NCBI RefSeq assembly: GCF_001672295.1 | Contig: NZ_JXMS01000001.1 | Coordinates: 62,001-126,000, forward strand | DNA length: 64,000 bases | Source: Halodesulfovibrio spirochaetisodalis | Lineage (GTDB): Bacteria; Desulfobacterota; Desulfovibrionia; Desulfovibrionales; Desulfovibrionaceae | Direction: 5' to 3' | Shown: positions 50,960 to 51,985 of the stretch, in pieces | How the letters are laid out: each line of letters opens with the position of its first letter | Numbering within the stretch: position 1 is the stretch's first letter | Notes under the pieces: generated by a model | The model's database searches: none | What the model saw: the letters and a program-made list of their open reading frames with translations, nothing else | What the model was told of the DNA's origin: nothing | Position numbers and translations under genes: made by a program

Positions 50960-50991
50960 GCTCCGGTCATCGCAAGGTGGCCGGAGCTTTT
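50960..50991 (+). terminator. Terminator of the str operon
   Basis: A perfect 7-bp stem GCTCCGG/CCGGAGC with a 14-base loop, followed by TTTTCT. Confidence 0.85.
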
Positions 50992-51054: not shown

Positions 51055-51083
51055 TTGACGTTAGTGCTTGTCTCACATATAAG
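51055..51083 (+). promoter_or_regulatory. Sigma70 promoter of the S10 operon
   Basis: TTGACG (51055-51060), exactly 17 bases, then TATAAG (51078-51083). The best-matching promoter seen in the window. Transcription would start near 51090, about 580 bases before rpsJ. Confidence 0.75.
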
Positions 51084-51113
51084 TCTTTCTCGCTTGAGAC
51101 GAACTCTGTTTTG

Positions 51114-51185
51114 TTCTTAAGCACAAAAACTCCTCCTCACAAATTTGGAGGTTAAGAATGGGTTGAGCCCATTCTGCTGTTTTTT
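51114..51185 (+). promoter_or_regulatory. Attenuator-like element of the S10 leader
   Basis: AGAATGGG (51155-51162) and CCCATTCT (51168-51175) form a perfect terminator stem followed by GCTG and six T. Its left arm overlaps TTAAGAA (51152-51158), which can instead pair with TTCTTAA (51114-51120), stabilised by CTCC/GGAG. The two folds exclude each other. Confidence 0.6.
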
Positions 51186-51479
51186 GACATTTGCAGGCGT
51201 TTCTTGATGCTGCATTATGTCGTGCCGTTCCAGCAAGGACCGTGTTTTGCTGTAAGGTGCACATACAAATTTAAGTGTTTATACCACTTGCATCTTGGAA
51301 CCCCTGCGGGCCCTCCATGTCTATTGTTTCTACACAATATGCATGGAACGGGTGACGACATTTGGGCGTTCTTCGCAAATAGTGGAGTAGAGGTCTTTTG
51401 ATGTTGTCACGCTGGGCTGGCATGTCACACATCACAATCCCTCTCTTCTTTTCTCCATTATTTACGAATAACAAATTTC

Positions 51480-51626: not shown

Positions 51627-51667
51627 ACAGGTAAGGGTCTCGTATCCCTAATATGGAGTAATAAACT

Positions 51668-51985
51668 ATGACAACTGTTAGCAGTGATCGTATCAGAATC
51701 AAGCTTAAAGCTTACGATTACCGCATCCTTGATAAGGCTGTGGCAGAGATCGTTGATACGGCGCGCAACACGGGTGCAGGGGTTGCTGGTCCAATCCCAC
51801 TCCCAACAAACATTCACAAGTTCACGGTCAACCGTTCTGTACACGTAGACAAAAAGTCTCGCGAGCAGTTCGAAATGCGCATCCACAAGCGTCTTATGGA
51901 TATCCTTGAGCCTACTCAACAGACCGTTGATGCTCTTGGAAAGCTCAGTCTACCTGCTGGCGTGGACGTTGAGATTAAACTCTAG
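51668..51985 (+). CDS. rpsJ: 30S ribosomal protein S10
   Basis: A 105-residue small-subunit protein, also the NusE partner of NusB in antitermination. Contains [17 protein letters not shown] at the start and the S10 loop [17 protein letters not shown]. First gene of the long S10-spc-alpha run. SD ATGGAGT lies upstream. Confidence 0.98.

Follow-up and report, generated by a model that had tools for sequence, protein, structure and literature searches.

The interval between fusA and rpsJ in Halodesulfovibrio spirochaetisodalis raises the question of what kind of RNA opens the transcript of the S10 operon. The window, i.e., the whole stretch of DNA that was analyzed, comprises 64,000 nucleotides (nt) of contig NZ_JXMS01000001.1, and all coordinates refer to it. 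A preliminary description of this interval had proposed a promoter followed by mutually exclusive hairpins, one of them a terminator, and its general reading, an S10-operon leader that lies close to the promoter and probably has a regulatory role, is correct in outline. The interval contains a structured domain of approximately 270 nt (51090 to 51360) within a 580-nt rpsJ leader, which in position and anatomy resembles a ribosomal protein (r-protein) leader. With moderate confidence, it is read here as a new, lineage-specific S10-operon leader that probably serves autogenous control by an r-protein. Computation shows that the promoter motif and the domain are conserved and that the domain is linked to rpsJ; several genera also have more terminator-like sites just upstream of this gene than expected.

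Folded from 51090 to rpsJ, the whole leader gives a z score of −8.46, and none of 100 shuffles is as stable. The fold of the first 103 nt is weaker (z = −4.28). The domain is composed of the following elements:

51092 to 51122, + strand: hairpin P1, predicted from the minimum free energy; present as a hairpin in 9/9 members of the genus, with differing sequences.
51132 to 51151, + strand: hairpin P2, CCTCC/GGAGG (CCCTG/CAGGG in other genera), from covariation and swaps.
51155 to 51175, + strand: hairpin P3, loop UUGAG/UCGAG, from covariation and swaps; the "terminator" of the preliminary description, here a structural hairpin.
51186 to 51221, + strand: conserved core UUGACAUUUGCAGGCGUU..., near-invariant across genera, with the local hairpin P5/P6 (GACAU/AUGUC and GCAG/CUGC) predicted at −15.0 kcal/mol.
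51193 to 51210, + strand: strand L of a long-range helix, GCAGGCGTTTCTTGATGC, from the long-range pairing analyses.
51224 to 51258, + strand: hairpin P7, GCCGUUCCAG...CUGUAAGGU, from helices 6 and 7, the inner helix changing on both sides.
51273 to 51289, + strand: hairpin P8, AAGUG/CACUU, variable, predicted from sequence and alignment A4 (25 of 32 chosen sequences).
51290 to 51307, + strand: strand L' of the long-range helix, GCATCTTGGAACCCCTGC, from the energy of its pairing with L.
51315 to 51346, + strand: hairpin P9, from the swap test.
51347 to 51360, + strand: 3' boundary of the shared domain (relatives have GGCCAGGCUGGCGACA), from comparison with these relatives.

The core TTTGACATTTGCAGGCGTT is present in 60 leaders from 15 genera, in most of them with the same two hairpins upstream, and the stretches TTGACATTTGCAGGCGTT, GCCGTTCCAG, and TAAGG are near-invariant over many genera. 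This set of 60 leaders contains core matches with up to 6 errors; L134 was removed by hand as a chance match, and L078 and L093 (7 errors) fall outside it, L078 being a clear model match at 99.8 bits. At the DNA level, a search of 149 genomes of the family matched 22 that lie outside the genus, essentially only over 51182 to 51240.

Pairing in relatives indicates that the structure is maintained. In alignment A2 (29 of 34 chosen sequences, with L084, L024, L027, L070, and L011 omitted), 85.7% of cells are paired, versus 79.1% when shuffled, and 89 cells are changed on both sides, versus 35.2; neither value is attained by any of 500 shuffles. Changes on both sides occur in 20 of the 36 pairs. 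Four of the five measures place the structure beyond every one of the 500 shuffles, and 10 of the 500 attain the fifth; when slid by 1 to 3 columns, the structure leaves at most 48% of cells paired every time. Two of the pair counts lean towards structure, one being made on a model-fitted alignment and the other on long-range pairs chosen by energy. P3 has 98.7% of its cells paired and changes on both sides in 7 of 8 pairs, and its own strands are better than the mean of swaps with other genera in 56 of 58 leaders. P2 is the weakest element in A2 (54.6% of cells paired), partly because the genus sequences are offset there by a base or two; it covaries, and its own strands exceed the swap mean in 52 of 58. 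For P9, own strands reach −12.4 kcal/mol versus −7.1 kcal/mol for swaps and are ahead of every swap in 22 of 54. Covariation or swap support was obtained for P2, P3, P4 (a hairpin of relatives only), P7, P9, and the long-range helix. The domain shows conserved secondary structure with compensatory changes, as expected of an S10-operon r-protein leader.

This degree of conservation bears on the idea of a long structured 5' untranslated region (UTR) whose main effect is on mRNA stability or basal translation and that contains no switch. The window has no clear output step and many genera of the family manage without the RNA, as such a passive UTR would allow, but such a UTR seems not to need the covariation, or the nearly invariant core, observed over 15 genera, which makes this a very unlikely account of the leader.

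The long-range helix joins L (51193 to 51210) to L' (51290 to 51307), approximately 100 nt downstream, over 12 to 17 bp. In the window it is predicted at −23.3 kcal/mol, versus a mean of −14.9 and a best value of −21.4 kcal/mol for 12 swaps with other genera. Over all leaders, the mean is −22.9 kcal/mol for own strands versus −18.2 kcal/mol with partners from other genera, and own pairing surpasses the mean of the swaps in 57 of 60. Double changes are found in several genera, e.g., ACAGG/CCUGU in g39. Since the strand GCAGGCGUU... is used both by the local P5/P6 hairpin and by the long-range helix, the two should largely exclude each other. From these modeled folds, P5/P6 and L:L' may exchange in the cell, and they are a better candidate for a switch than the alternative pairing at P3 considered below.

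The distribution of the RNA is narrow. Of the 297 genomes of the order that were searched with covariance model R1, 115 had a match at an E value of 0.001; they belong to 16 of 55 genera, all within Desulfovibrionaceae. The matches in G036 and G106 are weak, lie on contigs other than that of rpsJ, and are probably due to chance; the remainder comprises 113 genomes from 14 genera, nearly all with a single copy. Genus g30, which belongs to the leader set, is not among the genera matched by R1 in this search. In a phylum-wide draw, 12 of 395 genomes matched, again in Desulfovibrionaceae only. Like the order-wide search, this draw used the stricter filters applied to searches of more than 40 genomes, which lose weak matches. 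A pattern scan of named genomes retrieved 53 loci, of which 46 were confirmed by the model. Confirmed carriers include Desulfovibrio piger, metagenome-assembled genomes called D. desulfuricans, Mailhella, Bilophila, Halodesulfovibrio, and "Desulfovibrio sp. A2"; model confirmation failed for loci in Kushneria, Pseudomonas, Geotalea, and four other records. Three genomes have two R1 matches, the second being weak in two of them and strong in G289. The two strong copies in G289 lie on different contigs of a genome marked as 4% contaminated, and this duplication is probably a mixed bin.

The core was found in 60 of 110 nonduplicate regions upstream of rpsJ, and 62 of the 100 such loci on which the model was run score at least 26 bits (the truncated loci L092, L115, L125, and L141 were omitted, as were L135 to L140). 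Among leaders without the RNA and with fusA in reach (n = 17), the gap between fusA and rpsJ is 83 to 241 nt in 15. One leader, L026 (genome G047; genus g7, which also has a Bilophila record), retains P2, the GGGACCACCUG...GGCCAGGCU block, and a hairpin resembling P3 within 530 nt upstream of rpsJ and has lost the core; from its sequence, it looks like a decaying copy.

Linkage to rpsJ is consistent. Synteny was scored on 66 of 78 matches, including some second records of one genome; the 12 omitted genomes had a leader already included. Of these 66 loci, 59 have a codirectional rpsJ as the next gene, and the other seven end 1 to 476 bases past the RNA. In every one of the 59 testable loci (48 distinct RNA sequences; 54 among the 66), the RNA lies upstream of rpsJ and on its strand, and rpsJ starts 165 to 454 nt past the end of the model match. 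This placement, together with the conserved promoter motif, is that of an S10-operon r-protein leader. A processed stable RNA or a trans-acting small RNA that merely shares the rpsJ promoter is quite unlikely in view of this fixed arrangement and of the end of the domain, where no terminator-like site is common to the genera, even though the compact conserved domain does end approximately 300 nt before rpsJ in the window.

Ligand pockets are often near-invariant in sequence, and riboswitches usually recur upstream of other genes. A leader of the same anatomy could sense a signal other than an r-protein, such as a small molecule, a tRNA, or a ppGpp-like compound. The near-invariant stretches shared by many genera, the overlap of the long-range helix with a local hairpin, and the attachment of a sensor-like domain to differing 3' ends all suit such a riboswitch-like element, which is nevertheless doubtful because the RNA occurs only upstream of rpsJ in all testable loci and mostly once per genome.

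This leader is flanked by the following features:

50960 to 50987, + strand: intrinsic terminator after fusA, 12-pair stem with a TTTTC tail.
51055 to 51083, + strand: promoter of the sigma-70 type, TTGACG-17-TATAAG, from sequence and kept in relatives.
51655 to 51985, + strand: Shine-Dalgarno (SD) sequence GGAG (51655 to 51658) and rpsJ (51668 to 51985), the first gene of the S10 operon.

The fusA terminator divides the str operon from the S10 transcript. The near-consensus promoter proposed earlier is borne out by its sequence (TTGACG at 51055 to 51060, a 17-nt spacer, and TATAAG at 51078 to 51083) and by its presence in 9/9 members of the genus, where it scores 9 to 10 of 12, keeps the 17-nt spacer, and has its −10 element ending 60 to 66 nt upstream of P3. 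Judging from the −10 element, the S10 transcript is expected to start near 51090. An automatic promoter scan overlooked 51055 to 51083 because it requires T as the final −10 base. Among the 60 leaders from 15 genera, 53 carry a TTGAC −35 element, and the mean best promoter score across leaders is 8.7 of 12, versus 7.3 in shuffles. The distance of some 480 bases to rpsJ given previously also holds, position 51185 being 483 bases upstream of the rpsJ start at 51668.

The hairpins that follow the promoter behave differently from the earlier proposal, in which P3 was a terminator governed by pairing of its left arm with 51114 to 51120. The inverted repeat at 51155 to 51175 is confirmed, with a pair probability of 0.999, and the stem is real and covaries across genera. 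The part of the claim that does not stand is the terminator: stem and U6 are separated by four bases (GCUG), and the run is U6 in six of nine genus members and interrupted (UUGUUU) in the other three. A U-run of at least 5 within 12 nt after P3 is confined to the Halodesulfovibrio genus, bar one g13 row with a misplaced P3; apart from that row, other genera have at most four consecutive T in these 12 nt, and P3 could not be placed in 2 of 60 leaders. A stem directly joined to a conserved U-run, as an intrinsic terminator has, was not found at 51155 to 51185, and terminator-like sites in a scan of the window are at chance level (3 found versus 2.1 ± 1.7 expected). As an intrinsic terminator, P3 is rejected outside the genus and is unlikely inside it. 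Many other genera have hairpin P4 at this position, and from sequence comparison the U-run of the genus may be a by-product of P4 loss.

The pairing of TTCTTAA (51114 to 51120) with TTAAGAA (51152 to 51158) can be drawn in the window. Constraining the fold to contain it gives −19.5 kcal/mol, versus −32.5 kcal/mol for the simple fold, i.e., approximately 13 kcal/mol weaker, and its middle pair has a probability of 4e-9. Conservation of both pairings had been suggested as a check: P3 is kept across genera, whereas the alternative is possible in only two of nine genus members, the window and one of its eight relatives. P1, P2, and P3 can form side by side and all persist in relatives, and the upstream segment has its own partner within P1, a hairpin retained in 9/9, so that the hairpins are not mutually exclusive and this antiterminator pairing is rejected. 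A stem followed by U6 in 6/9 and a pairing that can be drawn in two sequences are what remains in favor of a switch at P3, which is most improbable given the energy difference, the loss of the pairing in seven of nine, the U-run interrupted in 3/9 and missing from other genera, and the retention of P1.

A stand-alone 95-nt RNA, also envisaged earlier, is unlikely because P1 to P3 begin a conserved domain that reaches approximately 51360. Its anti-SD-like CTCCTCC forms the 5' arm of P2; as a conserved anti-SD it is rejected because other genera carry different bases at this arm. The stretch 51147 to 51166 (GGAGG-TTAAGA-ATG GGT TGA) resembles a ribosome-binding site with a two-codon frame inside P3. 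As a mini-open reading frame it was provisionally rejected; it overlaps the left arm and loop of P3, and the stem bases vary in relatives.

An S10 leader of the Escherichia coli type, controlled by uL4, has an attenuator hairpin and a U-run close upstream of rpsJ. No such site was found within 130 nt of rpsJ in the window or the 8 other genus members; g20, g40, g39, g12, and g18 have one. A hairpin with a T-rich tail occurs within 130 nt before rpsJ in 22 of 60 leaders, versus approximately 4.6 in dinucleotide shuffles, and is distributed by genus (expected values in parentheses) as g20 6/6 (0.6), g40 8/8 (0.9), g39 5/5 (0.5), g12 2/2 (0.1), and g18 1/1 (0.2). The first scan for such sites had no control, and the dinucleotide-shuffle control comes from a later scan. 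The attenuation proposed previously fails in its mechanism at P3; the idea of attenuation elsewhere in the leader gains support from relatives, farther downstream. The sensor-like domain is conserved, and its output seems to differ between lineages.

In the genus itself, a terminator-like site anywhere in the leader is present in six of nine members, versus 1.7 expected. The window has one weak candidate:

51390 to 51451, + strand: imperfect GAGG...CCTC hairpin followed by TCTTCTTT, −15.8 kcal/mol.

Its CU-rich tail lies 224 nt before rpsJ, and 1 of 30 dinucleotide shuffles is equally stable; the site is absent from a stricter terminator scan of the window. It is overlapped by a hairpin of the predicted 3' leader fold in which GGAG-rich 51382 to 51396 pairs with CU-rich 51437 to 51466 (CTCCAT in 9/9 genus members).

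Several results weigh against autogenous r-protein control exerted through this leader. No terminator-like site was found within 130 nt before rpsJ in 38 of 60 leaders, including 9/9 of the Halodesulfovibrio genus and 8/8 of g38. SD sequestration was not detected, the best duplexes being mostly no better than shuffles. The local P5 pairing has no swap support (31/55), its stem being nearly invariant, and L:L' is in the best tenth of swaps in only 33 of 60 leaders; in six (four of g20, plus L015 and L029), pairing was best with a strand elsewhere or the anchor failed. Exact matches to the organism's own 23S rRNA locus are at chance level (11 nt; shuffled mean 9.8, maximum 13), which is a weak test of structural mimicry of the uL4 site in 23S rRNA. 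Moreover, 30 of the 44 genera in the family draw have no member in the 15-genus leader set, although the operon is present in most of them, which makes the leader dispensable.

The uneven presence of terminator-like sites also bears on an RNA that acts on RNA polymerase or on ribosome loading, by processive antitermination or transcription-translation coupling, in place of sensing a repressor. Its promoter-proximal position and size, together with sites lying between the RNA and rpsJ in 22 leaders, would fit this role. It is unlikely, however, given the 38 leaders, the window among them, with no site so close to rpsJ and the lack of a match to any Rfam family.

Searches against Rfam release 15 retrieved no match at the gathering score in the window and only an unrelated tRNA in the loci of 13 relatives. 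This release includes r-protein leaders, and the present leader exceeds no curated threshold; its sub-threshold L20_leader score is 16.7 bits against a cut-off of 58.7. RNase P was rejected as an identity, a separate good copy being present elsewhere in the genome. So was 6S RNA; RF00013 has no match in the genome (G000) at an E value of 0.001, in a search that was positive in 5 of 14 control genomes.

S10 operon control has been worked out in few lineages, according to a review (PMC10931766). In E. coli, uL4 regulates the operon via a long structured 5' UTR, affecting translation as well as transcription, the latter at a Rho-independent terminator; this leader is described there as not widely conserved (PMC10931766). 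The present leader resembles it as a long structured 5' UTR upstream of rpsJ, which E. coli controls by uL4 with NusA, and several relatives of the window share a terminator-like site just upstream of rpsJ. It differs in that the window has no such site near rpsJ. The S10 r-leader known from Firmicutes and the 20 r-leaders in PMC7247131 are, by description, likewise lineage-specific structured RNAs that precede r-protein genes. A term search of the main text of that paper gave no hit for Desulfo, rpsJ, or uS10, and its deltaproteobacterial entry is an L20 leader (PMC7247131). The attenuating r-leaders L20 and L10(L12)4 of Bacillus subtilis use alternative RNA pairings (PMC10931766), which the overlapping L:L' and P5/P6 would resemble; these are different operons and RNAs, and the alternative pairing here is not tied to a terminator. 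In the literature searched, which covers few subscription journals, no account of a leader RNA upstream of rpsJ in Desulfovibrio was found.

On the reading as an r-protein leader, the S10 operon would be transcribed from the promoter at 51055 to 51083, and the first ~270 nt (51090 to 51360) would fold into P1, P2, P3, the near-invariant core, P7, P8, and P9, a domain conserved across part of Desulfovibrionaceae. The core strand would sit either in the local P5/P6 hairpin or in the 12- to 17-bp helix with the downstream strand. By analogy, an excess of an operon-encoded protein, such as L4, would bind the domain, shift the balance of the two states, and lower the output of the operon. An S10-operon protein is proposed as effector by analogy only, and control by L4 or by growth rate is conceivable. 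In genera whose rpsJ is preceded by a hairpin and U-run, the output would be attenuation; for Halodesulfovibrio, this step is uncertain, 51390 to 51451 being a weak candidate.

The S10 operon is among the main points at which ribosome production is controlled. The leader offers a defined, testable RNA whose exact strands can be mutated, both in sulfate reducers and in bacteria of the gut (Desulfovibrio, Bilophila, and Mailhella). These findings also suggest that S10 leaders had more than one origin and that the sensor-like domain persisted as output platforms changed.

More tentatively, the leader could represent an undescribed class of regulatory RNA, a bistable switch of approximately 270 nt in which the core strand exchanges between the local hairpin and the long-range helix and sets expression of the S10 operon, the largest r-protein operon, through varied output platforms (a terminator before rpsJ in g20, g40, g39, g12, and g18 and a platform of some other kind in Halodesulfovibrio), possibly in response to a signal other than L4.

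A second downstream copy of GCAGGC is present in 12 of 60 leaders, versus 5.3 expected, chiefly in g20 and g40. In five g20 leaders (L069, L071, L073, L083, and L091), a second GCAGGCG, identical to the start of core strand L, lies at −67 to −72 from rpsJ in the 5' arm of the terminator-like hairpin. From its sequence, this copy could compete for L' as an antiterminator switch.
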